DNA of 64,000 nucleotides, from assembly GCA_003987775.1 (NCBI GenBank), contig RXJD01000009.1:149884-213883 (forward strand). Direction: 5' to 3'. The notes beneath the pieces are model-generated. The model worked only from the letters and a program-made list of their open reading frames with translations, did no database searches and had not been told where the DNA came from. The stretch is from Mycobacterium sp. (GTDB taxonomy: Bacteria; Actinomycetota; Actinomycetes; Mycobacteriales; Mycobacteriaceae). Both the position numbers and the translations under genes were made by a program. Positions 406-50,769 of this stretch are shown here, one piece after another (the first letter of the stretch is position 1; every line of letters starts with the position of its first letter).

Positions 406-427
406 ATTGGCGAGCGACCGGGCTGCG

Positions 428-7804: not shown

Positions 7805-7850
7805 CGCATCCTCCGGCCGCTCGGTTAAGACAGATTACTTATTCCTAAGG

Positions 7851-7873: not shown

Positions 7874-7888
7874 GTGCCTAATGCTCGA

Positions 7889-20797: not shown

Positions 20798-20846
20798 CGA
20801 GCTCAACCCACCCCTCCGGGCAACCCCCACGATGCCCAGCCAGTAA

Positions 20847-20876
20847 CGATCGCCGAATAACCGAAGCTTATGACGC
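20847..20876 (-). promoter_or_regulatory. Conserved promoter-like element upstream of PE-lipase 1
   Basis: On the minus strand this reads GCGTCATAAGCTTCGG followed by TTATTCGGCGATCG. The core TAAGCT fits a TANNNT -10 box. The same core with TCGG downstream occurs before the other two PE-lipase genes at 28644-28674 and 50592-50621, although the genes are far apart. It is therefore probably a shared promoter or operator. Confidence 0.45.
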
Positions 20877-20922
20877 CGCGGCGAACCCACAAGTCAATTC
20901 GCCCGAATCTATTGTTTAGCCC

Positions 20923-21690
20923 ATGGACAGTGACGCGGACTCCGTCAGCCGCCGCCGGCTGTTGTCGCTCGCCGGCGGCCTGGGCCTGACGGCCACCATC
21001 GGGGCGTGCGCCGGGCGGACCGCTGCGGATCCTGCCCCGGTGCAGTCCACCACGTCCGCCGTCCCCGCGACACCCTCGCCAACCGCTTCGGCACAGCGGG
21101 CCGCCCCGGCGTCGGCGCTTTGCCGCGACGCGTGGGGCGCCCGTCCCGCCAAGCCCGGCGGCACACCCCAGACCATCGGCCGCATGACGCTGCACCACGC
21201 CGCGGTGGTGCTGGGCGCCAACAGCAATGCTCCGGCCCGCTTCCGCGCGGACCAGCGTTACCACCAGGACACGCTCGGCTGGATCGACATCGCCTACCAC
21301 TTCGGTGTCGACGCCAACGGCAACATCTACGAGCTGCGCCGACCCGACATTGCGGGCGACACGGCCACCGACTACAACACGATCGGCCACTTCCTCGTCA
21401 TCTGCGAAGGCGACTTCGACAAGGAAACGGTGCCGGATGCGCAGGTTCAGGGAGCTGCACGCGTATTCGCCTGGGCAGCAGCCAGATACGGCATCTCGAC
21501 GAACACGCTGGCCGGCCACCGGGATCTCGCCCAGACCTCGTGCCCCGGAAAGAACCTGTACGCCTACCTTGCGTCGGGCGAACTCAAGCACCGCGTCGAC
21601 ACTCTCCTGGAAGCCGGCGGCGTGGACCTGCAGCCATTGTGCGGAGCCGGAGGCGCGGCGAGGGTCGCCGACATCGAAGCCGGCAACTGA
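20923..21690 (+). CDS. N-acetylmuramoyl-L-alanine amidase-like (PGRP/Amidase_2), Tat lipoprotein
   Basis: A 255-residue exported protein. The N terminus carries a twin-arginine signal (SRRRLLSLAGG) ending in IGAC, a lipobox, so it is probably anchored to the membrane. The rest is a peptidoglycan-recognition/amidase fold: CRDAWGARPA at the front, MTLHHAAVV with the first zinc His, YHFGVDANGNIYELR, and AGHRDLAQTSCPG with the second His and the Cys. The complete ligand set suggests that it cuts the bond between MurNAc and L-Ala. It is divergent from PE-lipase 1. Confidence 0.88.
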   Translation: MDSDADSVSRRRLLSLAGGLGLTATIGACAGRTAADPAPVQSTTSAVPATPSPTASAQRAAPASALCRDAWGARPAKPGGTPQTIGRMTLHHAAVVLGANSNAPARFRADQRYHQDTLGWIDIAYHFGVDANGNIYELRRPDIAGDTATDYNTIGHFLVICEGDFDKETVPDAQVQGAARVFAWAAARYGISTNTLAGHRDLAQTSCPGKNLYAYLASGELKHRVDTLLEAGGVDLQPLCGAGGAARVADIEAGN

Positions 21691-21961
21691 CGCACGGCAT
21701 CTATGGGCAAAGTTCTTTTACGCTGCACCACAGAGCATTTGATCGATGGTCTCGATAATCCGCACAGTTGCCTGCATTCGACTGAATGCCGATCGCGGGA
21801 CCGGCAGTGTGCCCTCGTCACGAAGCGCGCCGTGCCGCGGCAGTTCGTCGCGACGCAATCCCTGAAGCTTTGGGTGAACACCGGTCGACGAACCCTTATC
21901 CTTCGAGGGTGGATCTTGCACGTGAACGCGGGCGCGGGGCCGGTTCACCACGAGGACCGGG

Positions 21962-23986: not shown

Positions 23987-24003
23987 TTCGTCGTCCTGCA
24001 TCG

Positions 24004-24156
24004 TCACTGAAAGTCGATGAGCCCCCCGTCGGAGTGGCATATCCCGGCGACCGCCAGTTTCACCAGCACCTCGCCGGCCCGCGGTGGATCCAGCTCGATC
24101 TCACGGATCTCCCATGTCCGGCCCGCGCCCAGCAACACCGCGCCTTGGCATTTCAT
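24004..24156 (-). pseudogene. Truncated N-terminus of an NDMA/mycofactocin-type zinc alcohol dehydrogenase
   Basis: Fifty codons starting MKCQGAVLLGAGRTWEIREI and running to AGICHSDGG, then a stop. This is the start of a zinc-dependent medium-chain alcohol dehydrogenase (the Cys in GICHSD is the first catalytic zinc ligand), of the actinobacterial group whose tightly bound NAD needs an external acceptor. Full members are about 370 residues, and nothing of the rest is seen nearby. It is a decayed remnant in the gap between the phytochrome and the helical protein gene. Confidence 0.7.
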
Positions 24157-24268
24157 CGGCCGAGCATTCCATTGCGGCAGATCGGCCCGCCGACCAGGGA
24201 CCATCGGCCCTACAGCGGGCCCACGCCGGGGGCGCATGATGCGTGCATATACCGGGAGGAGCGCCATC

Positions 24269-24601
24269 ATGGCAGAAACAGACACCGAGAAGAAGACCGT
24301 CGCGGAACGGGCGGCTGACCTGACCGAACGAGCGGCCGGCCTTTCTGACGAAGTCCTCAAGTCGGTCGAATCCGGACAACGGGCGGCGATCGATGCGGTG
24401 CGCAAGTTCGTCGGCACGGTCGAGGATTCGTTGCCCGGGCACGGTGAGGATCACCCGTCACGACGCAACACCATCGTGGACGCCGCTTTGGACATGGCGG
24501 ACAAACTGGTCAAAACCCAGTACGAGTTCATCCGGAGCGTCGTGAGCAGCGCAAACGAGTCGTTGCACAAGCAGCCCGAGGACAAGCCACCCGCTGAGTG
24601 A
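24269..24601 (+). CDS. Small helical, charged protein (phasin-like or apolipoprotein-like)
   Basis: A 110-residue hydrophilic protein without signal peptide, rich in Ala, Glu, Lys and Asp. Amphipathic repeats such as [20 protein letters not shown] and [20 protein letters not shown] suggest two or three long surface helices of the kind that coat lipid inclusions, or a simple helical bundle. Strong ribosome-binding site GGGAGGA nine bases before the ATG. No family is firmly recognised. It precedes the kinase gene by 73 bases. Confidence 0.7.
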
Positions 24602-24674
24602 TCGCCGTCGGCCGGGTGCGGTTGCGGTGGGTGAAATTCGCCCCCTCGCCGTGCCGGTTTGTAGGCTTTCGGGC

Positions 24675-26456
24675 ATGCCGTTCAAAAACGGCGAGGTCTT
24701 CGCTGGCTACGTGATCGAGCGGCTGCTCGGCACTGGTGGGATGGGCGAGGTCTACCTCGCGCAGCACCCACGTCTGCCTCGTCACGATGCGCTGAAGGTC
24801 CTGTCCCTGGCGGCCACCTCCGACCAGGAATTTCAGGCCAGGTTCAAACGCGAGGCGGAACTGGCGGCCACGCTGTGGCATCCGCACATCGTCACTGTGC
24901 TGGACCGCGGTGAGTTCAACGGCCGGCTCTGGATCTCGATGGAATACGTCGAAGGTATGGATGCGGGCGAGCTGGTACGCGACCGCTACCCGGATGGCAT
25001 GCCCGAGCGCGACGTGGCCGACATTGTGAGCGCGGTCGCAGAGGCGCTTGATTTCGGTCATGACCGCCGTCTGCTCCACCGCGACGTCAAGCCGGAGAAC
25101 ATCCTGGTGGCCGCGGCCGATGGGCAGCGGCGCCGGGTGTTGCTGACCGACTTCGGCATCGCCCGCAAGATCGACGATGTCAGCAACCTGACCGAGGCGA
25201 ACGTCGCGGTGGGAACCATCAGTTACGTGGCTCCCGAGCAACTGCTGGGCAAGCCGCTGGACGGTCGGGCGGACCAGTATGCGCTGGCCGCGACGACCTT
25301 CTTTCTGCTGACCGGCGCTCCGCCGTTCCAGGACTCCAACCGCGCCGTGGTGCTCAGCCACCACCTGAATTCGCCGCCACCGCGCATCTCGCAGCGGCGG
25401 CCCGAGCTCGCTCACCTCGACGCCGTTCTGGCGAGAGCGCTGGCCAAGGACCCGAACAAGCGCTACCCGACGTGCGCGGACTTCGCCCGGGCCCTCGCCG
25501 AGGCTGGTAAGGCCGGAAATGCCGGCCTGGCCGAGCGTCCCACCACCCAGCGACTCGAACGTCTGATCGTCACCGGTATCGCCCGCGCAGTCCGCTCGGA
25601 CGGTGCACCAGATCAGGTCGGGACGCTGTCACTGCAGGTGGTGCCGCACGAACCGCTCGAGGACCTGCCGCCTGTGCTGCCGGTCGAAATCCAGACCGAT
25701 CTGGTCGCCGGTCAGCTCTCCGACGGCGACGAAGTCGAGGTCACCGGCATGTGGGACGGCGAGACCCTCGACGCCGACAAGATCGTCAATCTGTCGGCTG
25801 GCGCACGCCCGAAGCGGCCCCGGCCCGAGGCCCCCGCCGTCACATCGACCAGATCGACCACATCGCCGACAGCGCCGATGGACAAGCCACCACGGCGCAA
25901 GAGGGCATGGATACTGGCCGCTCTCGCCGCCGTCGCCGTCATCGCGCTGAGCGCCGGTGCGGTGCTGTACTTCACGCACGGATTCGGCCGCGAGACACGC
26001 CCGGGGCCCATCGTCAAGCCGGTGAGCGCCACGGTGTTCTCCCCCGACGGCACCCCTGACAATCCGCAGGACGCCAAGCTGGCGATCGACGGCAACCCCA
26101 ACACCGGTTGGTCCACCGTGACCTATACCGACGCCGTGCCCTTCCCGAAATTCATCCAGGGCATGGGTCTGATGCTGCACCTGTCCGAACCGACGGCGTT
26201 GAGCGTCGTGACGCTCGATGTGCCCAGCACCGGAACCCAGATCCAGCTCCGCTCGTCCCCCACCGAGAAGCCCGCCAAGCTGTCCGACACGACGGAACTG
26301 GCTCCGACCACGTCGCTGGAACCGGGACGCAACCGCATCACGGTGACGAGCAAGACCAAGACCTCGAATGTGCTGGTGTGGATCTCCCGGCTCGGCACCA
26401 CCAACGGCGAGAGCCGCACGGAGCTGTCCGATATCACCCTGCAGGCGGCCGGCTGA
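24675..26456 (+). CDS. Transmembrane Ser/Thr protein kinase, PknF-like, with discoidin-like sensor domain
   Basis: Encodes 593 residues. The kinase domain (about 10-275) has a GTGGMGEV glycine loop, Lys41, the catalytic loop HRDVKPEN (Asp137), DFGIA (Asp159) and the APEQL motif, so it should be active. The opening sequence resembles mycobacterial PknF. An intracellular beta-rich segment (295-375) with [13 protein letters not shown] looks OB-like, which is unusual. A basic patch and membrane helix lie at 406-432. The outer domain (450-593) begins [20 protein letters not shown] and continues [11 protein letters not shown], resembling the discoidin-like domain of mycobacterial MviN/MurJ. The start at 24675 fits the family N terminus. 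Confidence 0.92.
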
Positions 26457-26548
26457 GCCGCCTGACGAGGAGCTTTCGTCCGAAAGACCCGCCGGGCAGG
26501 GACCTTGTCCTCTGGCCGCCTGTGGCTGTGGTCACCGATTCTCAAACG

Positions 26549-27454
26549 ATGACCGAGACCACGCCAGCCATCCCGTTCTCCGTCTGGCGAAAGATCGCCA
26601 TGGCGACCTGGCGGCCGCGGACAGACCCGACTATTTCGGCCACGATCGACGTCGAAGCCGGTCAGCTGCTCGATTACGTCGACCAGGTTCGCCTGGCGAC
26701 CGGCCAGCACATCACCCCCGTAGACCTCGTCGGCCGGGCTGCGGGCAAGGTCGTCGAAGCCCTGCCCGGGCTCAACGGCCGCGTGGTGTTCGGGAGCTTC
26801 CTGCCGTCCCCCACCATCGACTGCTTCTTCGTCGTATCGCTTCGCACCGATCCGGTGGCCGGGGTGGAGGCAGCCAGGACCGATCTGTCCGGCACCGTTG
26901 TGCGCCGCATCAACGAGAAGCCGCCGTGGGCGATCGCCAAGGAGCTGGCCGATCGGGCCGGCCGGATCCGCCACGACAACGACCCGCAGTTCAAGAAGAT
27001 GAAGGCCATGGTCAAGGGGCTGCCGCCGCTGCTGCTTCGCCCCCTGATGGCCGGCGTCGGATTCGTCACCGAGAGCCTGCAACTGCCGCTTCCGTTCACC
27101 GGCCTCGAAGCCCGCCCGTATGGATCCATCCTCGTCAGCAACGTCGGGACCTACGGCCTCGATTCAGCCGCCGCCCCGGTGCCGAACTTCTGCCACGTGC
27201 CCGTCACAATCCTGATCGGTGCCGTGACCGACAAGGTGCTGGCGCGAGACGGTCAACCCGTCGTCCGTCCGGTGTTGCCTCTGACGATCAATCTGGACCA
27301 CCGGTTCGTCGACGGCTACCAGGCGGCGACGATGGCCCGGATCTTTCGCGAGTATCTCGCTGATCCCGCCGCGTTCGACCCGGTGCCTGCGGCGATCCCG
27401 TCGGGCGAGCGGGAGCCCGCGCAGTCCGCTGCGAAAAGCCCGGCGACCGCCTAA
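26549..27454 (+). CDS. Stand-alone 2-oxoacid dehydrogenase E2-type acyltransferase domain
   Basis: A 301-residue protein corresponding to the catalytic domain of dihydrolipoamide acyltransferases. The active-site motif HxxxDG is present as DHRFVDG near the C terminus, and the trimer-forming core GSILVSNVGTYGLDSAAAPV is recognisable. Lipoyl and E1/E3-binding domains are absent, so it cannot work as a normal E2. Lone E2-type domains occur in mycobacteria and may be acyltransferases for other acyl-CoA or thioester substrates (inference). It follows the kinase gene by 92 bases; an earlier GTG start is possible. Confidence 0.8.
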   Translation: MTETTPAIPFSVWRKIAMATWRPRTDPTISATIDVEAGQLLDYVDQVRLATGQHITPVDLVGRAAGKVVEALPGLNGRVVFGSFLPSPTIDCFFVVSLRTDPVAGVEAARTDLSGTVVRRINEKPPWAIAKELADRAGRIRHDNDPQFKKMKAMVKGLPPLLLRPLMAGVGFVTESLQLPLPFTGLEARPYGSILVSNVGTYGLDSAAAPVPNFCHVPVTILIGAVTDKVLARDGQPVVRPVLPLTINLDHRFVDGYQAATMARIFREYLADPAAFDPVPAAIPSGEREPAQSAAKSPATA

Positions 27455-27462
27455 ACCCGCAG

Positions 27463-28626
27463 TCAGGCCGCGATGCCGAGTTGCTGGTTGATTCCAGGCC
27501 AGTAGGGCAGACCGCTCGGAGTGAGCAGGATGAAGTCGTGAATCCCGGTCTGATTCAGGATGAAACTGAACGGAGCACCCTGCGCGACGGCCGCTTGCTG
27601 CAGGATCGCCGCTTGCTGGACGAGTGGGTCCAGGGCGCCGGAGTAGACGTAGGTCGGGGGAAGCCCGGCAAGCGACCCGTACAGGGGGCTCACCATCGGG
27701 TTGGTCGTGGACAGACCGCCCGCCCAGATCCCACCGAGACCGCCGCTGTTGCCGACGTCCAGCCACGGCGATAGCAAAACCACGGACGACGGAACAGGCT
27801 GACCCTGGCCGACCAGGTACTGGACTGAGGCCAGGGCGAGGTTGCCGCCGGCGGAGTCGCCGACCACGCTGACATTGGCCGCCCCGTGCTGGGTGATCAG
27901 CGAGGAAATCAGGCCCGCCGTTCGGGGCACCACCCAGCTGGCGGTGCCCCCTTCCTGCACGAGCGGGTAGATCGGCACCTGGAAGGTCGCGCCGGTCTGG
28001 TAGGCCGTCACCGAGTAGTTGATCCAGTGGAAGAACGACGCCGGGAAGATGAACGCACCGCCGTGCAGGCCGACGACGTATTCGCCCGTCGGGTGGGCCG
28101 GCGTGATCTGTACGACGCGCATTCCGTCGTATGACGTGAACTGGACGGTCTGGCCGAGCAACGCGTTCAGCAAAGGTGGCGGCGAGTTGCCCAGGAACCA
28201 CGACAACGGCGGGGCGTCGCTGGCGATCAGCGCCAGTAGCGGAGAACCCTGCACCGATGTCAGCGATGCGAATCCGGCGGCCAGGGTGTTGGGGATCTGC
28301 TGAATGCTGAGCACCGTCTGCTCGAATGCCGCCAACGGGGCAGCGCTTGCCGCCTCAGCGGAGGCATACGCTCCGGCCGCGCCGGCCAAGGCCTGCGTGA
28401 AGCGCTCCTGGAACACGGCCACCTGGGCGCTGAGTACTTGATAGCCCTCGCCGTGGGCGGAGAACAGCGCCGCGACCGCCGCCGACACCTCGTCCTCGGC
28501 CGCGGCCAATACCGCTGTGGTGGCGCCCGCGATGGTCTCGTTTGCGGTGGCGACCGCCGAACCGATGGAAGATACGTCGGTGGCCGCAGCAGACATCAGT
28601 TCGGGAAATGCAACAACGTAAGACAC
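27463..28626 (-). CDS. PE-domain lipase (LipY-like), paralog 2
   Basis: A 387-residue protein with PE domain (MSYVVAFPELMSAAATD) and alpha/beta hydrolase. The oxyanion motif HGGAF, nucleophile GDSAGG, Asp in YSGALDPLVQ and His in GIHDFILLT are all present. It is closer to paralog 3 than to paralog 1 in linker length (the PE domain runs directly to NTLAAGFASLTSVQGSPLL). It is probably exported through ESX-5 and acts on triacylglycerols or other esters outside the cell. It converges on the E2-type gene with eight bases between stops. The conserved upstream element lies at 28644-28674. Confidence 0.92.
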   Translation of the reverse strand: MSYVVAFPELMSAAATDVSSIGSAVATANETIAGATTAVLAAAEDEVSAAVAALFSAHGEGYQVLSAQVAVFQERFTQALAGAAGAYASAEAASAAPLAAFEQTVLSIQQIPNTLAAGFASLTSVQGSPLLALIASDAPPLSWFLGNSPPPLLNALLGQTVQFTSYDGMRVVQITPAHPTGEYVVGLHGGAFIFPASFFHWINYSVTAYQTGATFQVPIYPLVQEGGTASWVVPRTAGLISSLITQHGAANVSVVGDSAGGNLALASVQYLVGQGQPVPSSVVLLSPWLDVGNSGGLGGIWAGGLSTTNPMVSPLYGSLAGLPPTYVYSGALDPLVQQAAILQQAAVAQGAPFSFILNQTGIHDFILLTPSGLPYWPGINQQLGIAA

Positions 28627-28643
28627 AGCGCCGCTCCACCCTT

Positions 28644-28674
28644 CGATCGCCCGATTGTCGGGAGCTTAAGCCGC
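28644..28674 (-). promoter_or_regulatory. Conserved promoter-like element upstream of PE-lipase 2
   Basis: Minus strand: GCGGCTTAAGCTCCCGAC then AATCGGGCGATCG. It contains TAAGCT and the dyad CCCGAcaaTCGGG. It matches the elements at 20847-20876 and 50592-50621 in the core and the trailing TCGG-CGAT. It is closer to its start codon (37 bases) than in the other two (63-68). Confidence 0.42.
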
Positions 28675-28733
28675 CGTGCAGCGTTCGGGAAGCGGTTTGC
28701 CGGAAACCGATGTCGGCCGTCGCCGGCGTGGAT

Positions 28734-29201
28734 ATGCTGCCGAAGATGCAGGTTGCGCCGGAAAGTCTCATCAGCGCGTCACGTCATTTGGCGGCCATCG
28801 GGTCCGATCTGGATTGCGCCCATCTACGGGCAGCGGCACCGACAACGAACATCGCCAGCGCCGCGGGCGATGAGGTGTCGACGGCGATTGCCGGGTTGTT
28901 CGGCTCGCACGCCGAGGAGTTTCAGCAGGTCTCGTTGCAGGCGGCCGCGTTTCATGAGCGGTTCACACAGGCCCTGAGCAACGGCGCCCACGCATATGCG
29001 AGCGCGGAGGCGTCCAACGCCGCGGTGTTGTCGGCCGCCGCGCCCGCCGCGGATGACAATCCCTGGACATTTCTCGTCCAGTTGGGAGCCTTGATCCTGA
29101 CGCCGCCCATTTTCGTTGCGTTGCTGGGCCTTGCGTCGACTCTGCTGGCGACTTACTGGGCGGCGACGCTGTTCAGCACGATCGTGCTGGGCAACGCGTA
29201 G
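28734..29201 (+). CDS. PE family protein with C-terminal membrane segment
   Basis: About 155 residues. A PE domain (VAPESLISASRHLAAIGSDL, later AAGDEVSTAIAGLFGSH and FHERFTQALSNGAHAYASAE) is followed by two hydrophobic stretches (FLVQLGALILTPPIFVALLG and LLATYWAATLFSTIVLG) that probably cross or enter a membrane. The start is uncertain between ATGs at 28710, 28734 and 28746; 28734 puts the Pro-Glu at residues 9-10 as usual in PE proteins. No PPE partner is adjacent. It is divergent from PE-lipase 2. Confidence 0.8.
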   Translation: MLPKMQVAPESLISASRHLAAIGSDLDCAHLRAAAPTTNIASAAGDEVSTAIAGLFGSHAEEFQQVSLQAAAFHERFTQALSNGAHAYASAEASNAAVLSAAAPAADDNPWTFLVQLGALILTPPIFVALLGLASTLLATYWAATLFSTIVLGNA

Positions 29202-29228
29202 CGCTCCTTGCCCCGGGGAGCCTGGCGC

Positions 29229-29996
29229 TCAGCCGGTGATTACGCCCCACCCATTAGGGCCCCAGCCGACAGTCTCCGGTGTCGCGCGTGTTGTTGCGGC
29301 TACTCGAAACGCGCGACCGTTGTCGTTGATGTCGATCGCGCCTTGCTTGCCATCGTCAGCAGACCACTGCAGCGTCGCAGTCCACTCACAGGTGCACGTG
29401 GTCGTCACGGCACTGATCCGCAGATTCTCGGGCGCAGCGCTGCTGACGGTGTGAGGCAACTTCTCGTCGGCCTCCGCTGTTACTGCAACCGGAGTTGCGT
29501 CCAAGTTCAACCCGAACTGATACGTGTCCGTTGGCCCCTTCTGCCTCATCAGGACCACGTATGCCCCCCGCAGCGGCTCGGCCCTCGACACGACGTTGAC
29601 GGTGATCCTCTGGACCACCACGTGGTGCCCGTGCAGGCCCTGCAGCCTGAGCTCGACGACGTTGCCGCTGGCGGGAATGCCGCCGTTGTCCGATGCCCAC
29701 CGGTCAACGTCACCGTGCTCGGGCGGCAAAGGCAATTGCGCAGGGGGCGTGGCGAATACCCAGCCGTTGTCGAACTCCACCGGTGACGGAACGGTGACCA
29801 CCACCGCGAGATACTGCGGCGGGTGCAAAAGCTCGTTGATCCAACGCACACCCGCCGTCACCCCCAAAGTAAGGAGTGGGATCACCACCGCGGACGTGAG
29901 GACTGCCCCCACCCATACCCGTGTCTTCGTCCACCGGGCGCGCCGCCGGCCGGCGGTCGCGTCCGGTACCTCGGGTGCCTGTCCTGGCGCGCTCAT
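29229..29996 (-). CDS. Single-pass membrane protein in the lysis cassette
   Basis: Encodes 255 residues. A basic cytoplasmic N terminus (ATAGRRRARWTKTR) is followed by one membrane helix (about 27-48, VGAVLTSAVVIPLLTLGVTA) and about 200 outer residues that look beta-rich, with YLAVVVTVPSPVEFDNGW and a TTTCTCEW segment near the end. It lies 17 bases behind the LysA-like gene on the same strand, so is very probably cotranscribed. It is far larger than a classical holin. By context it might help the signal-less LysA/LysB proteins, or it might be unrelated. No family was recognised. Confidence 0.7.
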   Translation of the reverse strand: MSAPGQAPEVPDATAGRRRARWTKTRVWVGAVLTSAVVIPLLTLGVTAGVRWINELLHPPQYLAVVVTVPSPVEFDNGWVFATPPAQLPLPPEHGDVDRWASDNGGIPASGNVVELRLQGLHGHHVVVQRITVNVVSRAEPLRGAYVVLMRQKGPTDTYQFGLNLDATPVAVTAEADEKLPHTVSSAAPENLRISAVTTTCTCEWTATLQWSADDGKQGAIDINDNGRAFRVAATTRATPETVGWGPNGWGVITG

Positions 29997-30013
29997 CGTG
30001 CCCGGCCGACCGG

Positions 30014-32638
30014 TCAGGTGCCCTGCATAGACGCTGCGCCGCTTGGCTTTCTGCCCCGGGTGGCGGTCTTCTTCCGGGCGGGTGTTCGCCGCGAGCGCGA
30101 GGCCAACGGCGTGGCCGGCCCGGCCTCCGCGGCTGCTGCGAGCGATGGAGTGGCCGTCTGGTCGCCGTCTGCCCGCTTGAGAACCTCTGCCACGGCATCC
30201 ACCAGAGTCCTGCCGTCGAGTTGCGGCCAGCCCTTGCCGTCGGGGCCCAGCAACTGCTCCCAAATCTCCTGCAGCAGAATGTGATCGGTGGGTTCCGCCT
30301 TCTTCGGCTCCTCGACCTGCGTCGTCAACTTGCCGAACTGGTCGAACATACCGAGCATCGCCTTCTTCACCTCACCGCGGAACCATTTCATGTCCATGTC
30401 GCCCGGGTCCGGCTTGCCCTGTTTGTTGATGCCGAGAGGATTCTCCGCGCCGGCCCATTCCTTGTGCCCGATGACATGGCTCGCGTCGTCATAGCCCAGC
30501 TTCGTGAGCACCGCCGCACTGGCGTCGCGCATGGTGTTGATCTGCGCGGGCGGCCACGTCTCATTGCCCGGATAGTGCGCCCCTGGTTGCCACGCGCACT
30601 CGAAGCCGATCAGCCTCGTGTTGCCACAGCCGTCGGGGATTCCCGGATAACAGCCGGGACCGGCGTGATTGCACGGACCGACAGCGACCAGGTGGAACTT
30701 CCCGTCGGAGGTGATCAACCCTTGCGACAGCGGGCCCGGCAGCCACCCTCCGGGTTGCATCACACCATCGCGGATGACCTCCCACTTTTCGTTGACGTTT
30801 CCGGTGTGGTGGATCATCACCCCCCAGATCGGTCCCATTGAACTGGAACCGTTTTCACCACATCCGGTGCCACGGTCCTGCCAGCCGTCGTGAACGACCA
30901 GACGGTCGCCGAGCGCTTGGCGCAGAACTTCCTCCAACCACACAGGGTCCCCGGTGTACGGCATTTCTTTTCCTCCCTCTGGTGTTCCGGCGAAGCGTTC
31001 GAACATCTCGCCGGCTTTTGTCCTGCGGCTGCGAATTTCATCGAGATAATCGCGGCGCGCGTCCGGATCGTTGTATGCGTCGTCGGCGGACGTTTCACCG
31101 GGACGCTGCTGGAGCCAGAAGATGTTCTTCCAGATGTCCGGCGATGCCCCTGCACTGCAGCGCTTCTCGTCGAGCCGGTCGAGAAACACCCGAATGTTCT
31201 CGTTGGGATCGTCGCGGCCCGGGTAACTTCCGTCCTGTTGGTAGATACCGTGCCAAGCGCCGCCGCCGCCCTGCGCATCCGGGCGCAGCCCCGACTCCTG
31301 GATCGCCGTCGACAGGCAGGCGATCGCTTCCTCGCGGGTGTAGCGGCGTCGCAGGGTTTCACCGATGATGACTTCGGCGACGGTATCGAAGCCGGACTGT
31401 CGGGTCAGCGAACCCAGTCGTTTCAGCGCCATCCAGCGCTCCGAATGTTGTTGCACGGCAGCACTTGGTGCGGTGGCGTCCCATTGGCCGAAGTCCTCCC
31501 GCAGGATGCGATTGCGATCTACGCCCACGCCGCCGACGCTCTGTTTGTCGATCTCGAACTGGTGCAGGTGGGCCGCCGGATGAACCTGCCCCCCGCTGTG
31601 TCCCTCGTCCCAGTTGTGCATCCAGAAATACGTGCCGATGCCGTCTCGGATTGCCCAGTCGATACAGGGGTAATTGCAGTAGATACCCATCCGCTCCTTG
31701 CCGAGCCGCTCCTGCCAGGCCAGCAAGTAGGGTCGGCACTGGGTGTTCCACTCCTGTTCGCTGGGGCAGGCGTCGATCGACACGTAGATCGGGGCGGTGT
31801 CCGGCCCGCCTGCTTCGGTATGCAGTTGCTGTCCACGTTCGGCGTCTTTATTTCCCTGCGCCGCCCCGCCTTTCCAGTCGGCGGTGTCGGCCTTGCCGAA
31901 CTGGTAGTTCGACACCACCACCAGGCCGTGGGCACGCAGGTCGTCGGCCTCCGCTTTGCGCAACGGCTTTCCCTGCATCCAGGTTGCGCGCGGATCCGAC
32001 ACGTAACGCACGGCGCCGGCGTACCCGGCGGCCTTGATCTGCTCGGCGCTGGGAACGCCGGCCGAGTAGTCGAGGAGGATCTGCCCGATGAGTGACTGTG
32101 CTGCTTGCAGTTTCGGAGCCTGGCGCGGGTCGACGGCGTCCGTGAGCCACGTCTTGTTCGGGTCGCGGTCCGGCCCGCCACTGCGCCCGGGCGGGCCCCA
32201 GGTCTCGAAGTGCAGATGCGGGCCCGAGGAACTACCCTCGGAGCCCACCACCGCTATCTGTTGGCCGGCCCGCACGGTGTCGTTGGTTCGCCACGGTTTA
32301 CCGGTGTCGGGGTTGACCAGTGATGACGGGGGCATGTGTCCGACGACGAAGTCCAGGCCCCATTCCTGCTGCGCGTCGATCCACAACCACGAACCGAAAC
32401 CGCCTGGATCATCATTGATTCCGACATGGACGAAGAATCCGTCGGCGGGCGCGTAGATCGGCGTTCCGTAGTTCGCCGCGATGTCGACACCACGGTGGTC
32501 GGGGCGGTCATCGGTGCGGTACCCGCTGCTGTCACCGGTATAAGTGCCAGGTGCCAGCGGGTGGTACTTGACTTTAGTGGGACTATCAATCCTCAACTGG
32601 CGAGCTGGTTTTGGCTTTGTGGCGTGTTTTGATGCCAT
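30014..32638 (-). CDS. LysA-like multidomain peptidoglycan hydrolase
   Basis: Encodes 874 residues (start at ATG 32638; GTG at 32659 is possible). Domains in order: M23 endopeptidase (about 38-150; HRGVDIAA and GPHLHFE give the zinc ligands); a DUF1906/Rv2525c-like glycoside-hydrolase domain (about 185-385; YVSIDACPS, MGIYCNYPC); a lysozyme-like domain (about 430-530; AIACLSTAIQESGL); an Amidase_2 domain (about 595-745; MIHHTGN, HVIGHKEW, KPDPGDMDM); then a charged helix and a Lys/Arg-rich tail. No signal peptide. The build is like mycobacteriophage Lysin A but with more catalytic domains. It starts 24 bases after the LysB-like gene. No phage structural genes are near. Confidence 0.85.
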   Translation of the reverse strand: MASKHATKPKPARQLRIDSPTKVKYHPLAPGTYTGDSSGYRTDDRPDHRGVDIAANYGTPIYAPADGFFVHVGINDDPGGFGSWLWIDAQQEWGLDFVVGHMPPSSLVNPDTGKPWRTNDTVRAGQQIAVVGSEGSSSGPHLHFETWGPPGRSGGPDRDPNKTWLTDAVDPRQAPKLQAAQSLIGQILLDYSAGVPSAEQIKAAGYAGAVRYVSDPRATWMQGKPLRKAEADDLRAHGLVVVSNYQFGKADTADWKGGAAQGNKDAERGQQLHTEAGGPDTAPIYVSIDACPSEQEWNTQCRPYLLAWQERLGKERMGIYCNYPCIDWAIRDGIGTYFWMHNWDEGHSGGQVHPAAHLHQFEIDKQSVGGVGVDRNRILREDFGQWDATAPSAAVQQHSERWMALKRLGSLTRQSGFDTVAEVIIGETLRRRYTREEAIACLSTAIQESGLRPDAQGGGGAWHGIYQQDGSYPGRDDPNENIRVFLDRLDEKRCSAGASPDIWKNIFWLQQRPGETSADDAYNDPDARRDYLDEIRSRRTKAGEMFERFAGTPEGGKEMPYTGDPVWLEEVLRQALGDRLVVHDGWQDRGTGCGENGSSSMGPIWGVMIHHTGNVNEKWEVIRDGVMQPGGWLPGPLSQGLITSDGKFHLVAVGPCNHAGPGCYPGIPDGCGNTRLIGFECAWQPGAHYPGNETWPPAQINTMRDASAAVLTKLGYDDASHVIGHKEWAGAENPLGINKQGKPDPGDMDMKWFRGEVKKAMLGMFDQFGKLTTQVEEPKKAEPTDHILLQEIWEQLLGPDGKGWPQLDGRTLVDAVAEVLKRADGDQTATPSLAAAAEAGPATPLASRSRRTPARKKTATRGRKPSGAASMQGT

Positions 32639-32662
32639 GATTCGTTTCTTTCTCTGCACACG

Positions 32663-33808
32663 TCATGCATTGGCCGGACTGGGTGTTGGCGGTGCCACCA
32701 GGCGACCGGTGAGCAAGCTCCGTACCCAGTTCACGCCTTCGTTGACGTCGTACGGGGAATAGTGCGGGTTCGGTTTGTCGTGGACGAAGACGACCCCGGA
32801 GATGATCGCCTCGATGATGGCCCAAATCTCTTCGAGGGGCCGGCTGAACAGCTTGCTGATCTGGAACGCCAGCGAGATCGGGTCCGAGAAGAAGTCGCCG
32901 CGGGCGGCGGCCTGGTACACCGCCGCTTTCGCCTTGCTGGCGTTGTCGTCGCCGTTCTCGGCGAAGATGTCGCCCTCGCGGTAGACGTCCATCCAGTTGT
33001 CCGGCTTGACCGGGAAGCCGGGCAGGCCGAAGCGCCGGTAGGGATCCAGGCCATGTGTTCCAGTCTTTTTGATCCAACCGGTGGCCCAGGGAGCGATGCT
33101 GTCGGTTTGACGGCACGGGTTGCCGTAAGCCAGGACGCCGAGTAGGTCGGCCTCACGCCACTCGAGCGGCTTGCCTGGTGCGAGATGGTTCATCCAGAAG
33201 TCGAAGCCGACGATGGCACCCTGACTGAATATCCCGAGCACCCACTTGGTGCCCGCCGGGAACGGCACCCCGTTGTCCATTACGGTCGCCCCGACCAGGC
33301 GGGCGAGTTCGTTCTCCCCGCTGGCGTTGTCGAACGGGAGGGCCGCGTTGTTATAGGCGATCGGCTGATGGCGGCACCGCCCCTCGCCTTCCAGCTGAGT
33401 CGCCGTGTCGGCCACCGGGCCGAAGAACATGTCCGACTGGTGCCCTTCGACGGTGAACATGATCGGCAGGGTCGGCGCGGAGCCCGAGCGCACCCTGTCA
33501 CCGGTTCCGGGCGCCGGATAGCTGCCCAGCCGTTGCCGCACAGCGAGATTGGCGACCGCACGCCCGCTCGCGTCGCGGATGATCGGCAACCCGGTGCGCT
33601 GACAGAACTGTTCGACCGCGCGGGCCACCAGTTCGTCGTAGTTCGGTTGGGCTACCACTCCCAGATCGCGCGCCCACTGATATTTGTCGTGCAGTTTGGC
33701 CGTCAGCAGCGTGATCGCATCCCAGTTCGGGGCGTCGCGCGGGGTGTCGGGACTGTCGACGTCACCCACTCCCAAACCGATCCACTGTCCGTTCGCGTCA
33801 TTCGCCAT
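32663..33808 (-). CDS. LysB-like mycolyl-arabinogalactan esterase with peptidoglycan-binding domain
   Basis: A 381-residue alpha/beta hydrolase. An N-terminal peptidoglycan-binding-like domain (about 28-96) holds YDELVARAVEQFCQRTGLPI and GRAVANLAVRQRLG. The hydrolase part has the nucleophile motif GIFSQGA (Ser196), VLAYGNP after it, the acid region WMDVYREGDIFAEN and a late His in NPHYSPYDV, the same order as in mycobacteriophage Lysin B. Such enzymes release mycolic acids from arabinogalactan during lysis. No signal peptide is visible, unlike host cutinases. It heads the three-gene cassette. Alternatives within the cutinase-like fold are possible, but the layout favours LysB. Confidence 0.82.
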   Translation of the reverse strand: MANDANGQWIGLGVGDVDSPDTPRDAPNWDAITLLTAKLHDKYQWARDLGVVAQPNYDELVARAVEQFCQRTGLPIIRDASGRAVANLAVRQRLGSYPAPGTGDRVRSGSAPTLPIMFTVEGHQSDMFFGPVADTATQLEGEGRCRHQPIAYNNAALPFDNASGENELARLVGATVMDNGVPFPAGTKWVLGIFSQGAIVGFDFWMNHLAPGKPLEWREADLLGVLAYGNPCRQTDSIAPWATGWIKKTGTHGLDPYRRFGLPGFPVKPDNWMDVYREGDIFAENGDDNASKAKAAVYQAAARGDFFSDPISLAFQISKLFSRPLEEIWAIIEAIISGVVFVHDKPNPHYSPYDVNEGVNWVRSLLTGRLVAPPTPSPANA

Positions 33809-34022
33809 GTGGATCTCCTGCCTGACTGCCAGGACGAAAGTTCGGCCAGATGCCCTGGAGTGTCTGGCGTCGGCCCCCTCGCCAACAGCGACTTCGCCTA
33901 TCGCCCATGATCTTCACCACCCCGCCCGGAAGGGATGCTTTGATCACAGCACCGGAGCGAACACGTCGATAGAGTCGAAAGTCCTAATGTGATTCAGTTT
34001 GTGCAGCAACGGAATTGAGGTG

Positions 34023-34589
34023 CTAATCGAGTACTTTCCAGGAGTTGGGACCGCCCTCCGCGGCCGAGCTGGTGCCGGACTCCACCCCCGAACAACTACC
34101 GCTGCGGGTTGTCCGCCATTGCCCCGGACCGGAGTGGTCGAGCACGGTTCCGTCCAGGCTGAACTCGAAGGTGGTCGGCACCGACGTGTCCGTCTGCCAT
34201 CGGCAGCGCGGGTCGTTCGCGTCGTGGCCGGTCTGATGAGTCGTCCACGTCCCCGTCATCGTCATCCCGGACAAGGTGCCGGTGAAGCTTCCGGTGTACG
34301 TATCCGCTTGATATGGCTGGTCCCAAGTCGCTGTGCAGGTGACCGCGGTGTCGACGACGTGGCAGTCCTGCACCGGCCCGTAGCTGTCACCACCGATCCG
34401 GAAGTGCTTCATCGGCGGCAGGCCGGCACCGTTCTGGTCCCGCGAGGTGGTGGTGCTGGAGGTAGTGCTGGATGGTCCAGTGATGATCGTGAACGGCGCA
34501 ACCGCAGGCTTACTCGGTGTCGAGCCGCAGCCCGCGAGCGCGAATGCCGTCGACGCTGCCGCAACGGACCGAAATAAGTTTGCCCACAT
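34023..34589 (-). CDS. Putative lipoprotein of unknown function
   Basis: A 188-residue exported protein with signal peptide MWANLFRSVAAASTAFALAG and a lipobox LAGC, then a Ser/Thr-rich linker and a beta-rich domain with four Cys (DCHVVDTAVTCTATW, RCRW, SGSCSG). It is a small mycobacterial lipoprotein with no recognised family. It is on the same strand as the lysis cassette but 214 bases upstream of it, so is probably separate. The gap 33809-34022 shows nothing else. Confidence 0.75.
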   Translation of the reverse strand: MWANLFRSVAAASTAFALAGCGSTPSKPAVAPFTIITGPSSTTSSTTTSRDQNGAGLPPMKHFRIGGDSYGPVQDCHVVDTAVTCTATWDQPYQADTYTGSFTGTLSGMTMTGTWTTHQTGHDANDPRCRWQTDTSVPTTFEFSLDGTVLDHSGPGQWRTTRSGSCSGVESGTSSAAEGGPNSWKVLD

Positions 34590-34699
34590 CAGGTTCGCCA
34601 GTATCGGCGCCCGCGCACATCGCGATTAGAGACTAAGGACCCTGCTTTTCGGGCCATAAGTCAGCCACCCATCCAGACGGGACCGAATAGAGTCAGCAG

Positions 34700-35161
34700 A
34701 TGCGGCTATGGCGGTTCGGGGCGTTGGCTACATTGGGTGCGATGGCGATCTCGGTCGCACCGGCAGTCGCCGCACCCGGTGACCCACCGGTTGATGACCT
34801 CGACGGCTATCCGCTCGCCCCGGGCACCTACACCACCTCGTACCGTTCGTGGGTCTACTTCACCACTCCGGACGGGCGGTCATGCGGCCTCGCCCCCAAC
34901 GGCGGTCCGGTTGGATGTGACGCGGTGCCCGCAGACGCCCCACCCGGCACCAACCAAACCTTCGCCGACGCGACCCACCCCGCCGAGTACCGTCATTCGG
35001 ACACCAAGACTTTCACCGGCAACGTGACCGTGCTACCCGCTGGATACCGGGTGCAGACCCTCGGCGGTGTGTGCGCGGTCGACAACCAGGGTGCCGTGCA
35101 CTGCCATACCGAGGGCAGCCACGGGTTCATTCTGTCGACGAGTCACGGGGTGCTCTGGTAA
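34700..35161 (+). CDS. Secreted protein of unknown function
   Basis: A 153-residue protein with a Sec signal peptide (MRLWRFGALATLGAMAISVA, cleavage after AVAA). The mature part has YPLAPGTYTTSYRSWVYFTT, then GRSCGLAPNGGPVGCD and a late Cys pair (GVCAVDNQGAVHCH), typical of small disulphide-containing mycobacterial exported proteins. The PLAPGTYT phrase also occurs in the LysA-like protein (PLAPGTYTGD), probably by chance. It is divergent from the lipoprotein gene. Confidence 0.78.
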   Translation: MRLWRFGALATLGAMAISVAPAVAAPGDPPVDDLDGYPLAPGTYTTSYRSWVYFTTPDGRSCGLAPNGGPVGCDAVPADAPPGTNQTFADATHPAEYRHSDTKTFTGNVTVLPAGYRVQTLGGVCAVDNQGAVHCHTEGSHGFILSTSHGVLW

Positions 35162-35178
35162 GGGCTGGTTCCTGAGGC

Positions 35179-35481
35179 TTATTCGCCCGGCTCCTTGAGT
35201 TCTGCCTGCCATCGAGCGCGGCGCTGTTCTTCGCTCGCCTCCCACCATGGCGGTGAACCACGCTCCCCCAGAGCAACTTTCGTAGCATTGACACCCGCGC
35301 GGGCGGTCGACTCCGCAGGCGTTCCCTTGGTGCGACGCACCTCCCGGCGCCAGGCCATCAATATCCGGACGAGCTCTTGCCTGCGATCGTCGGGAATCGA
35401 CGGATCCGTTGCGCGCCATTTGCGACCGTCAACGACGATGTAGTGCCCGTCATCGGTGGGTTCGGGTGCTCGATTGGAAAT
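35179..35481 (-). CDS. Small conserved basic protein, probably initiated at ATT
   Basis: The frame is open for 100 codons from 35481 to a TAA at 35179, but the first ATG is at 35361, which would lose a strongly patterned N-terminal part (DDGHYIVVDGRKWRATDPSI, then PDDRRQELVRILM). No ATG or GTG, and no TTG other than the one next to that ATG, lies in front. The codon at 35479-35481 is ATT and has a perfect AGGAG six bases before it, with an in-frame TAG upstream of that. ATT initiation therefore explains the gene best. The protein is rich in Arg, Trp and Glu (PPWWEASEEQRRARWQAEL) and without membrane segments. The function is unknown. Confidence 0.65.
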   Translation of the reverse strand: MSNRAPEPTDDGHYIVVDGRKWRATDPSIPDDRRQELVRILMAWRREVRRTKGTPAESTARAGVNATKVALGERGSPPWWEASEEQRRARWQAELKEPGE

Positions 35482-35653
35482 GCGCCACTCCTATCAGCCG
35501 ACACTCTGGATACCCACCGCCATCGGGGCGGACACCGAACGCCTGAAGCTCCGCCGCGGCCTTCGAGCACCAAACAGTGTCTTTGGTCCTTCGGCTTGCA
35601 TCTCTTCGGCCCTGATAGTCACTACCGCGCTGAGTGATGCTGCGGGTGGGTAA

Positions 35654-36577
35654 ATGGCCGATCAGAAAAGAGCCGACATGTGGCATCCACCACGCGGCGC
35701 GATCCTGGTATGCGTTGATGGCTCGGCCGCGGCGCTGGGTGCCGTCCGATGGGCGGCTCGCGATGCGGTGCTGCGGGGCGCCCCTTTGGCTCTGGTCCAC
35801 ATCTCCGACGCCGCCTTGCCGGAGTGGTTCGAGATCGCCGCGCCGCCCGGCTTCAGGCAATGGCAGGGGCAGCGGGCCCGCGATTTCATCGCGACGGCGA
35901 TCACGGTCGCCGAGGAGTGCACTGCGGCGTCGGGACCCGTGCAGATCGATAGCCAGGTGTTCAATTCGGCCATCGTCCCGACGCTCGTGGGCCTCTCCGC
36001 AGAGGTGGAGATGCTCGTGGTCGGCCACCGCGGACATGGCGGTGTGTTGGCCGGTGGCGGCCTGGGCTCGGTGAGTTCGGCACTGGTCTACCACGCGCAT
36101 TGTGCGGTCGCCGTGACCCACGACGATCAAACCGTGAACGGCCATGTCGCACGGGCGCCGGTGTTGGTGGGCATCGATGGCTCACCGGCATCGGAAGCGG
36201 CGACGGCCATTGCATTTTCGGAAGCATCGCGTCGAGGTGTCGCCCTCATGGCCTTGCACGTGTGGACCGAACCCTGGGTTTCCGGCTACTGGGGATCGTT
36301 CCAGGACGCGACGTGGGACGCTCGGCTATCCGAGGAGGAGGAGAGCCTCGCTGAGCGGCTGGCCGGTTGGCCCGAACGCTATCCGGAGGTGCCGATCCGG
36401 CGCATCATCGAAATTGGCGATCCCGCAAGGTGTTTGATCGAGGCTTCCAAGCAGGCACAGCTGCTCGTGGTCGGCAGCCACGGCTGCAGCTGGTTCCGCG
36501 GCAAGCTGCTGGGATCGGTCGGGGCGGCGGCCGTCAGCAGGGCGAAGGTGCCCGTGATCGTCGCGCGTCAGTCCTGA
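35654..36577 (+). CDS. Universal stress protein, two USP domains
   Basis: A 307-residue tandem universal stress protein. Each half starts with a strand carrying an Asp (ILVCVDGSAAAL; VLVGIDGSPASE) and ends with the ATP-binding pattern (VVGHRGHGGVLAGGGLGS; VVGSHGCSWFRGKLLGSV). These proteins bind ATP and modulate growth and stress survival in mycobacteria. No convincing DosR box was seen upstream. It converges on the crotonase gene with 17 bases between. Confidence 0.92.
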   Translation: MADQKRADMWHPPRGAILVCVDGSAAALGAVRWAARDAVLRGAPLALVHISDAALPEWFEIAAPPGFRQWQGQRARDFIATAITVAEECTAASGPVQIDSQVFNSAIVPTLVGLSAEVEMLVVGHRGHGGVLAGGGLGSVSSALVYHAHCAVAVTHDDQTVNGHVARAPVLVGIDGSPASEAATAIAFSEASRRGVALMALHVWTEPWVSGYWGSFQDATWDARLSEEEESLAERLAGWPERYPEVPIRRIIEIGDPARCLIEASKQAQLLVVGSHGCSWFRGKLLGSVGAAAVSRAKVPVIVARQS

Positions 36578-36594
36578 ATGCCAGATGGCTCACG

Positions 36595-37398
36595 CTAAGC
36601 CGGGTTGGCGAAAACCGGCCGCTCCCCGGACATTCCAGCGACCACAGCAGCGATTTGGTTGGGCGAGCCGATCAGTCCGGTTTGCAACTCTGATTCGAGC
36701 GCGAGAGCAGCCGCGGGGTCATTGCTGACCCAGGTCTCGTCGTACAAGCGCTTCGCGGCACGGACGGCATGCGGCGACTTCTGCGCGATCTCGTCCGCGA
36801 GCGCCAGCGCCGCCGACAACGGGTCCTCGGCGGTTCGGGTGACCAAGCCGAGCTCGGAACCCTCACTGCCGGAAACGATGCGGCCAGTGAACGTCAACTC
36901 TTTCGCGACGTCGATAGGTAGGAGTCTCGGCAACGTCTGTGTGATTCCCATGTCGGGAACGAGGCCCCACTTGATCTCCATGACGCTCAGCTTCGCGTCC
37001 GGCGCGGCGATGCGGATGTCGGCGCCGAGCGCGATCTGCAGACCGCCGCCGAAGCAGTTGCCGTGGATCGCGGCGATGACTGGCGCCGGTACCAGCGACC
37101 AGTCGTAGCTCACGCGCTGGGCGAGGTTCGCCGGCCCGTCTCCGTCTCGGGTCAACAAGACGCCCGTGCCTCGTTCGCCGCCCATGAAACTTGCCACGTC
37201 CAGGCCTGAGCAGAAGCTCTTGCCCTCGCCGTGCAGCACGACCGCGCGGACCGAGGTATCACGTCGGAGCTGCGCGGCGGCATCCACCAGGCCATCGAAC
37301 ATCGCCTGATCGAGCGCATTGTGCTTGTCGGCGCGCACCATCGTTGCCGTTGCCACACCGTTGTCTGCGATCCGAACCCGGACTCTGTCTTCGCTCAC
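36595..37398 (-). CDS. Enoyl-CoA hydratase/isomerase (crotonase) family protein
   Basis: Encodes 267 residues from a GTG at 37398 (VSEDRVRVRIADNG; a TTG three codons upstream is also possible). The oxyanion-hole segments are GEGKSFCSGLD and AIHGNCFGGGLQIALGAD. The second half has VMEIKWGLVPDMGITQTLPR, with Glu and Asp in the usual acid/base area. This is the form seen in many mycobacterial EchA proteins of unassigned beta-oxidation step. No neighbouring fatty-acid genes define a substrate. Confidence 0.9.
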   Translation of the reverse strand: MSEDRVRVRIADNGVATATMVRADKHNALDQAMFDGLVDAAAQLRRDTSVRAVVLHGEGKSFCSGLDVASFMGGERGTGVLLTRDGDGPANLAQRVSYDWSLVPAPVIAAIHGNCFGGGLQIALGADIRIAAPDAKLSVMEIKWGLVPDMGITQTLPRLLPIDVAKELTFTGRIVSGSEGSELGLVTRTAEDPLSAALALADEIAQKSPHAVRAAKRLYDETWVSNDPAAALALESELQTGLIGSPNQIAAVVAGMSGERPVFANPA

Positions 37399-37449
37399 GA
37401 AGAGCAATCTATCGCGGGCGCCAAACTCAGCGCGCCGGCCGGGACCGCG

Positions 37450-38283
37450 CTAGGTGGCGGGGCGGTAGCGCGCCTCGGCGAACGAGAACAATCCGTAGGC
37501 GAAGAGGCCGACGGCAATCAGCCAGAGGACCAGCGGTCCCCAGCTCTGGCCGGCGAGTTCGGCCAACAGCCCGGACAATCCTTTGGCGTTCTTCGGGTCG
37601 AACGTCAGTCCCGCGACGACGAAGAAGAAGCCGACGCCGATGGCCACCAATCCGCTGCCCACGTAACCCGCCCGGCCCAGCGCTTCGATGACCTTGCGCT
37701 TGTCCTGGCTCAGGCCTCCGGTGCGCTTCATGAACTCGCAGTTGATGGCGTGCTTGTAGATCTCGTAGCCACCGAAGCCGATGGCGGCGAGGCCGACGAT
37801 CAGCACGATCCACCGTCCGCCGGGCAGGCCCATGACCACCCCGGCGGCATGCTCCTGGCCCTCGCCACCACCGGCGCCGGGGACCGCACCGGCATCGCCG
37901 CCCCAGTTCGCGATGAGAATCGACAGCGACGCCAGCGCCGCACCGCTGTAGAGAACGCCCTTGCCCGCGTATTTGGCCCGATGGCTGCCGTCGGACCCTT
38001 CGATCGGATCACCGGAGACGGCCTGGCTGAATTTCCACACCACCAGCGCGATCAAAGCCACCGTCAAGGCGATCAGCAGGAACTTGCCGAACGGCGCCTG
38101 CGCGACGGTCTGGATCGCCCCGGTCTTACTGGCGCCGGCCGAGGAGCCATCACCCATCGCGACCTTGATCGCCAGGAAGCCCAAGAGCGCATACAGCGCT
38201 CCCTTACCGATCAGGCCCACCCTCGCGACCTTGGATCTGACGTCACCCGCATGCCTCTGTGCACTGACAGTAGTTCTGCTCAT
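37450..38283 (-). CDS. DUF1206 integral membrane protein
   Basis: A 277-residue membrane protein with about six hydrophobic helices arranged as three repeated pairs, each pair opening with a Gly/Arg-rich turn (ARVGLIGKGALYALLGFLAI; AKYAGKGVLYSGAALASL; LGRAGYVGSGLVAIGVGF). This threefold repeat is the mark of DUF1206 proteins. The function is unknown. The ATG at 38283 begins MSRTTVSAQRHAGDVRSK; a longer frame upstream lacks the pattern. Confidence 0.88.
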   Translation of the reverse strand: MSRTTVSAQRHAGDVRSKVARVGLIGKGALYALLGFLAIKVAMGDGSSAGASKTGAIQTVAQAPFGKFLLIALTVALIALVVWKFSQAVSGDPIEGSDGSHRAKYAGKGVLYSGAALASLSILIANWGGDAGAVPGAGGGEGQEHAAGVVMGLPGGRWIVLIVGLAAIGFGGYEIYKHAINCEFMKRTGGLSQDKRKVIEALGRAGYVGSGLVAIGVGFFFVVAGLTFDPKNAKGLSGLLAELAGQSWGPLVLWLIAVGLFAYGLFSFAEARYRPAT

Positions 38284-50621: not shown

Positions 50622-50769
50622 TGCCACAAAGCAGGCGACGCTTTCGCGAGAACCGCTGCGCCTCCGCGTCGCGGCCGCAAGTCGTCGATTAATCATCTTT
50701 GCAGCCCTGACGTGCCTGCGATGAGATAAAGCCAGGGCCGAAAACACGCTCTGACCTGCTATTCCTCAG

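Follow-up and report, generated by a model that had tools for sequence, protein, structure and literature searches.

The stretch of DNA analyzed here, hereafter the window, covers 64,000 nucleotides of contig RXJD01000009.1 of Mycobacterium sp. (positions 149,884 to 213,883 of the forward strand; genome G000 in our sample), and it carries on its minus strand a pair of phage-type lysis genes, lysB and lysA, which the host has very probably domesticated. Three genes with intact frames follow one another head to tail: lysB (32663..33808; 381 amino acids), predicted to encode a mycolyl-arabinogalactan esterase-like protein; lysA (30014..32638), predicted to encode a multidomain peptidoglycan hydrolase; and a gene for an accessory single-pass membrane protein of 255 amino acids (29229..29996), a variable member of the cassette. 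The intergenic gaps amount to 24 and 17 bases when the ATG starts at 32638 (lysA) and 29996 (membrane gene) are used, LysA then being 874 amino acids long, or 881 if translation begins at the alternative GTG at 32659.

For the first protein, sequence and structure searches agree. LysB matches PHROG 102 (“endolysin”) over residues 6-350 (E 3.9e-47) and no Pfam family; 904 phage records match it, all below 60% identity (35% for the best ranked), and the 25 best ranked of these carry a lysin B annotation. The LysB of D29 (3hc7) is its sole solved sequence relative at E <=1 (E 3.3e-5) and is also the top Foldseek match of its predicted model (E 5.4e-11, probability 1.00; mean predicted local distance difference test [pLDDT] of the model 67.6, that is, moderate), so that the two proteins appear to have a fold in common. 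A putative catalytic triad, S195, D280, and H349, was placed by alignment to D29 LysB together with positions in the latter that we take to be catalytic; all three residues are invariant across 10 aligned LysBs, and in a second alignment of 8 LysBs that includes more distant phages, S195 and D280 are invariant and H349 is not. As its family suggests, LysB would release mycolic acids, which are constituents of the mycobacterial wall, from arabinogalactan.

LysA reads as four consecutive domains on the minus strand, of which three match Pfam hidden Markov models over their cut-offs: an M23 peptidase (32198..32497; PF01551, E 4.9e-16, residues 55-154 of the 881-residue form), an Rv2525c-like (DUF1906) glycoside hydrolase-like domain (31508..32041; PF08924, Rv2525c_GlyHyd-like, E 9.3e-45; PDB 4pmq, Rv2525c, E 3.7e-72), and an Amidase_2 domain (30401..30835; PF01510, E 3e-11, residues 609-753; PDB 9hna, an amidase, E 3.1e-47). 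Between the last two lies a domain (30938..31423; residues ~413-574) that has no Pfam match and resembles the domain with which the matched phage lysin A proteins begin (RedBird and others, IMG/VR, phrog_700). Residues 398-826 as a whole are 49% identical to the lysin A of the best-ranked mycobacteriophages, and no phage record spans 80% of LysA at one site. The protein matches PHROG endolysins and, through its hydrolase domains, tape-measure families and one head family. LysA is a mosaic: with a Rhodococcus phage endolysin its Rv2525c-like part shares 62.8% identity, and with the Rv2525c-like protein of its own genome 57%, so that this domain may derive from either phage or host. Motifs that we take to be zinc ligands and active sites are unchanged in five carriers of the cassette, and by its families LysA would cleave several peptidoglycan bonds.

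The third protein has one transmembrane-like segment in a hydropathy scan, and its AlphaFold model is useless (mean pLDDT 35.1). It was considered as a holin or as an obligate partner of the hydrolases and rejected as both, being single-pass, not holin-like, and absent from three carriers. No holin-like small multi-pass protein was found by hydropathy among the open reading frames (ORFs) of at least 40 amino acids in 26000-38000, a holin elsewhere in the genome not having been searched for; the sole ORF with two transmembrane-like segments in this interval (30890-32095) is antisense to lysA. Neither LysB nor LysA has a hydrophobic N-terminus, as judged by the hydropathy scan only and not by a signal-peptide predictor, and LysB has a marginal internal hydrophobic segment. 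An earlier note, made from the letters alone, had described a cassette at 29229..33808 on one strand with these gaps, a LysB-like first product, a four-domain LysA, a single-pass third protein, and the lack of a signal peptide on either hydrolase. The ORFs, the family and structure searches, and hydropathy (for the signal peptides, hydropathy alone) bear this description out; the inclusion of the membrane gene in the module is not supported.

The surroundings of the cassette are those of a host chromosome. To the left lies a gene for a PE protein whose C-terminus includes a hydrophobic segment (28542..29201, plus strand; Pfam PE, one transmembrane-like segment), and to the right one for a small protein with a lipoprotein-like start (34023..34589, minus strand); both are also present in a cassette-free relative (G251). 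The latter label, like those of the thiolase, acyl-CoA dehydrogenase, and TIR-like genes mentioned below, was assigned by eye. Around them are genes for a PE-alpha/beta hydrolase (hereafter PE-lipase), a serine/threonine kinase, a phytochrome-GGDEF protein, a universal stress protein, an enoyl-CoA hydratase, and P450s; the window also encodes tRNA-SeC and tmRNA (6915-7004 and 50769-51134). The cassette has a G+C content of 0.64-0.66 and the interval 20000-29000 one of 0.66-0.68, and elsewhere in the window the values fall equally low or lower. A PHROG scan took in 14 proteins of the window, including 11 neighbors from outside the cassette. None of these 11 matched a family of structural, integrase, or replication proteins; what they matched were kinase and stress-protein families and families without a known function. 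Phage_portal has no match in the whole of G000 and PhageMin_Tail has one, under the family cut-off; these two families, which alone can miss prophages, were searched in 31 chosen genomes, where the portal was matched in 6 and the tail exceeded its cut-off in 9. Repeats that could mark the boundaries of an insertion are short and imperfect, and none could be placed at both ends of the cassette. No recognizable prophage thus surrounds lysB–lysA, as the earlier note had claimed.

To map the cassette across the genus, we took a sample of 396 genomes from a larger group, scoring per genome up to 4 first-look candidates for LysB and up to 2 for LysA. LysB is matched at E <=0.001 in 65 of them, and at >=87% identity over almost its full length in only 4 (G000, G006, G226, and G143). 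When named genomes were scanned as well, M. gordonae CTRI 14-8773, M. gordonae DSM 44160, and a metagenome-assembled genome (MAG) came to light; with G143 and DSM 44160 counted once, this gives six distinct carriers, all of M. gordonae type. LysA is matched in all 396 genomes; among the matches listed, those in non-carriers cover part of the protein, mostly its Rv2525c-like domain, and the full architecture is found only in carriers of the pair. The same neighbors stand on both sides in five of the six (the window, G006, CTRI 14-8773, G226, and G143/DSM 44160), and on the 8.6-kb contig of the MAG the PE side agrees with the other carriers. The lipoprotein-like right neighbor has no intact ORF in G226, the MAG, and G143. 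The membrane gene is less constant: homologs adjoining lysA (63-64% identity) occur only in G226 and the MAG, and the gene is missing from three carriers that all retain lysB–lysA (G006, CTRI 14-8773, and G143/DSM 44160). Its product is matched in 20 of the 396 genomes at E <=0.001, the best match beyond G226 being at 38%. Upstream of lysB, an alignment of six 260-base regions revealed a block kept among carriers, which may contain the promoter (33870..33985, minus strand, limits approximate) and which in the MAG sits at a greater distance from lysB than in the others. A DosR-like box in this region (33940-33990), scanned for with a consensus that we assume to be correct, was set aside as too weak to use, the best score in the window being 12/20 against an expected best of 11.75 in shuffles; scores reach 14-15/20 in G006, CTRI 14-8773, G226, and G143, and none is >=12 in the 200-base stretch taken from the MAG, which may miss the block.

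The cassette evolves much as some of its neighbors do. Pairwise NG86 ratios of nonsynonymous to synonymous divergence (dN/dS), which are averages and not proof for every branch, were computed for the window against G006, G226, the MAG, and G143. They amount to 0.08-0.15 for lysB (dS 0.52-0.60), 0.14-0.23 for lysA (dS 0.60-0.81, with one piece only for G143), and 0.23-0.32 for the membrane gene (dS 0.86-1.02, in G226 and the MAG). In comparison with G006, G226, and G143, the flanking PE-lipase gene gives dS 0.54-0.64 and dN/dS 0.10-0.12, and the flanking kinase gene dS 0.53-0.59 and dN/dS 0.12-0.135, values to which the dS of lysB is close. In addition, lysB branches in the same order as five flanking genes, analyzed as one tree, on the five taxa that the two trees share, support in the lysB tree being moderate (88.5/79 for one fork). 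The carriers compared have thus inherited the pair vertically, under selection that is purifying on average. The earlier note had proposed that the cassette was domesticated away from prophages and that its conservation across Mycobacterium genomes, together with the membrane gene, would support this; the pair's presence at the same non-prophage site in five carriers and the purifying selection acting on it do so, and conservation together with the membrane gene extends to only three of the six carriers. Domestication of lysB–lysA is, on these grounds (a pair outside any recognized prophage, the same neighbors in five of six carriers, and purifying selection), well supported.

A phage origin of LysB is likewise well supported, because the carrier clade joins a prophage LysB in the phylogeny that we inferred. 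In this maximum likelihood tree, built from 34 of the 53 LysB ORFs collected (L063, L064, L066-L079, L102, L103, and L112 were omitted), the six carrier LysBs form one clade (100/100), which together with the prophage LysB of G209 and IMG/VR and with the LysB of G026 makes up a set of nine (100/99). In G209, tail, methylase, and integrase genes surround the LysB gene. This prophage LysB (G209 and IMG/VR L109) is 72% identical to that of the window over nearly its full length, N-terminal domain included, but in G209 it lies among those phage genes, with a shorter endolysin. Mycobacteriophages, too, keep the two enzyme types near each other on one strand; however, lysin A comes first in the four phages examined, whereas in the window lysB precedes lysA with no phage around, and LysA carries its M23 and Rv2525c-like domains ahead of the part resembling the RedBird-type (Cheoctovirus) lysin A. 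A LysB 52% identical over two thirds of that of the window is also found on plasmid pM018 (L039, M. intracellulare), which carries portal, capsid, and tail genes as well. Taken together, we judge it fairly probable that a phage LysB–LysA pair was captured ancestrally in the M. gordonae group and kept as an accessory host cassette, whose likeliest use would be self-lysis or release.

Several observations weigh against this interpretation. The pair is dispensable: G251, the closest relative by one flanking gene (92%), lacks the cassette and any LysB match, its lipoprotein-like and PE genes adjoining directly. The 61-base junction between them shares a 15-base word with the block 5' of lysB in G006 and CTRI 14-8773; in 2000 single-base shuffles of the junction the longest shared word was 11 bases, and the same maximum came from 5000 shuffles restricted to its right part, for which 14 was observed. 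We read this junction as a probable deletion scar, an argument that depends on G006 and CTRI 14-8773, since the longest word common to the window and the junction is only 12 bases and lies elsewhere, near the lipoprotein-like gene. When five flanking genes are combined in an unrooted tree, G251 and the window group together apart from the remaining carriers (98/96); a rooted two-gene tree nests G251 among the carriers with weak nodes (25/53 and 21/37), and because of this weakness the trees alone would also accommodate a gain of the cassette after the split from G251. In the outgroups G136 and G097, relatives of the kinase and PE-lipase are present and nothing matches this LysB. Furthermore, lysA of G143/DSM 44160 reads as three overlapping frames (L042, 6967-9600) next to an intact lysB, and either gradual decay or a faulty assembly of DSM 44160 could explain this. 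On the lysB side of the cassette, the MAG carries a relative of window 26108-27454 (L035, 1787-2740), located in the window beyond the PE-lipase gene, and rearrangement and misassembly may equally account for this. The remaining flanking genes range in dS from 0.18 (the lipoprotein-like gene, in G006) to 0.70 and in dN/dS from 0.08 to 0.30; since flanking dS varies this widely, the equality of rates between cassette and neighbors holds for the kinase and PE-lipase genes and less for the others. Finally, a holin-like ORF is absent from 26000-38000.

Some of these features would be expected if the pair were what an ancient prophage has left behind, decaying and without function today: the carrier LysBs group with prophage LysBs, lysA is broken in one carrier, G251 has a scar in place of the cassette, and the third gene comes and goes. 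Yet of such a prophage only lysis genes would remain, identical in kind in all six carriers (lysB and lysA) and under host-like purifying selection over synonymous distances of ~0.5-0.8, with no other phage gene among the scanned neighbors and no portal match in the genome. Because of this host-like dN/dS and of vertical inheritance, we consider a remnant distinctly unlikely, and less likely than domestication.

How a domesticated pair would be used is a more delicate question, as we infer its enzymatic activity, its trigger, and its benefit. LysB and LysA would be made in the cytoplasm, lacking recognizable export signals, and would reach the wall either once phage, stress, or an unlinked partner has damaged the membrane or by passing slowly through it independently of a holin; the envelope would then be opened and the cell lysed, in a programmed or abortive self-lysis or for release by lysis. 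Passage from the cytoplasm in one of these two ways seems to us the likeliest mode, because the enzymes have no recognizable export signals and no holin stands nearby. According to one report, most of the mycobacteriophage LysAs tested did not lyse M. smegmatis when no holin was present, although some did (PMC3314691), and for this reason damaged-membrane delivery and slow passage may both be envisaged. Self-lysis is favored since the two activities together suit lysis, and since an accessory, sometimes-lost module fits defense or release better than housekeeping; given domestication, we regard the odds of a self-lysis role as evenly balanced.

Another reading, in which the two proteins would be ordinary wall-remodeling or extracellular enzymes exported by a non-classical route, could draw on the DUF1906 domain, which resembles Rv2525c (named a Tat-secreted protein in the PDB) and has relatives widespread in the genus. 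We find it very unlikely, in view of N-termini that by hydropathy do not resemble signal peptides, of a domain set that is phage-type, and of the rarity of this LysB, present at >=87% identity in 4 of 396 genomes, G000 included.

Host co-option of phage lysis genes is already known from type 10 secretion. In Serratia and Yersinia, such genes are retained outside phages, as they are in the window, and the clusters described there comprise holin, endolysin, and spanin and can act by lysing a subpopulation (PMC10847048). The window cassette differs in having a mycolyl esterase in place of the holin/spanin set: it has an endolysin but neither the defining holin, at least linked to it in 26000-38000, nor any spanin that we could recognize. 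The pair may accordingly be viewed as a holin-less cousin of these systems, opening the walls of a few cells and freeing cytoplasmic or wall-trapped proteins such as the PE-lipase, and the PE and PE-lipase genes beside the cassette lend this some appeal. Yet no holin-like ORF lies in 26000-38000, G251 retains its PE and PE-lipase genes without the cassette, and PE proteins have an export route of their own, all of which makes this reading rather unlikely. What may be new is the holin-less LysB–LysA version: among the matches listed, the open-licence literature yielded no report of LysB–LysA as mycobacterial host genes, weak evidence of absence as this is, and nothing on point about endolysins as effectors. 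The single paper there that mentions both M. gordonae and lysin B does so solely among its references.

LysB/LysA-type pairs also occur at other, host-like sites in the genus. A first group (A; L046, L048-L053) is syntenic in seven genomes of seven species and combines a multi-pass membrane protein, a protein of unknown family, a LysA-type protein, and LysB, next to apparent thiolase and acyl-CoA dehydrogenase genes. A second (B; L054-L057, L059) is syntenic in five genomes of five species and consists of a LuxR-type AAA gene, a LysA-type gene, and lysB, with a patatin DUF3376 gene directly before the latter in four of the five loci (it was not detected in L054); in one of its genomes (G404), a tape-measure gene lies ~12 kb from LysB. 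Neither LysA-type protein matches a Pfam family: that of group A has PHROG endolysin matches, and that of group B is so named by its 43-47% identity to the former. The host context of both groups leans on Pfam, synteny, and reading by eye, because few of their proteins were scanned against PHROG (three of group A and none of group B). Mean dN/dS is 0.13 (A) and 0.14 (B) for LysB, and 0.13 (A) and 0.09 (B) for the LysA-type partners. Both groups thus resemble the window cassette in their LysB (57-70% identical in the catalytic part), in the LysA-type partner, and in purifying selection, but they differ from it in site, in LysA architecture, and in their multi-pass membrane or patatin partners. 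Their LysBs, moreover, belong with those of G233 and G347 to a separate clade of 14 in which no phage member stands among the LysBs sampled (95/90). Two further loci carry related genes. In G026, a second LysB-like/LysA pair (L147, 7-11702), whose LysA has M23, Rv2525c-like, amidase, and LGFP domains, lies near a patatin DUF3376 gene and a WD40 protein. In G077 (L148, 1976-15527), a LysA-type gene stands between two nSTAND1-WD40 giants with TIR-like starts and adjoins a fragment resembling the end of a LysB-like protein, together with a membrane protein resembling that of group A. We also noticed patatin DUF3376-like fragments in G405 (L061, 14033-16420), 3-6 kb from a LysB gene.

These loci suggest repeated capture of LysB/LysA pairs in the genus, possibly for conflict systems, and they are relevant to a use of the window pair in abortive lysis or anti-phage defense, where it would hasten the lysis of a cell whose membrane has been harmed by a phage or by a conflict system. 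The accessory nature of the cassette, missing from a close relative, would suit such a use, as would the proximity elsewhere of LysB/LysA-type genes to patatin DUF3376, LuxR-type AAA, and nSTAND1-WD40 genes; Rv2525c-like barrels, besides, are described within TelC-domain proteins in the section on toxins and conflicts of one source (PMC12419801). These associations come from few loci without a chance control, however; none of the three gene types stands beside the window cassette, and LysA and LysB match 0 PADLOC families (E <=0.01), so that a defensive role is put forward here only as a tentative possibility. A broader view, speculative and in our opinion unlikely, is that mycobacteria repeatedly captured such pairs as the killing arm of conflict systems, for a sensor-triggered altruistic lysis through mycolate and peptidoglycan; infection would be sensed by TIR/STAND-WD40 proteins, LuxR-type AAA proteins, or the patatin partner, and at the window locus by membrane damage itself.

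If the preferred interpretation of lysB–lysA as a captured and host-kept pair is true, mycobacteria would possess, in enzymes able to cut mycolate and peptidoglycan layers alike, a means of on-demand self-lysis. This would be relevant to the exit of DNA and cytoplasmic proteins from cells with a mycomembrane, for which it gives testable candidates, and the parallel pairs at other loci would make the question testable across the whole genus.

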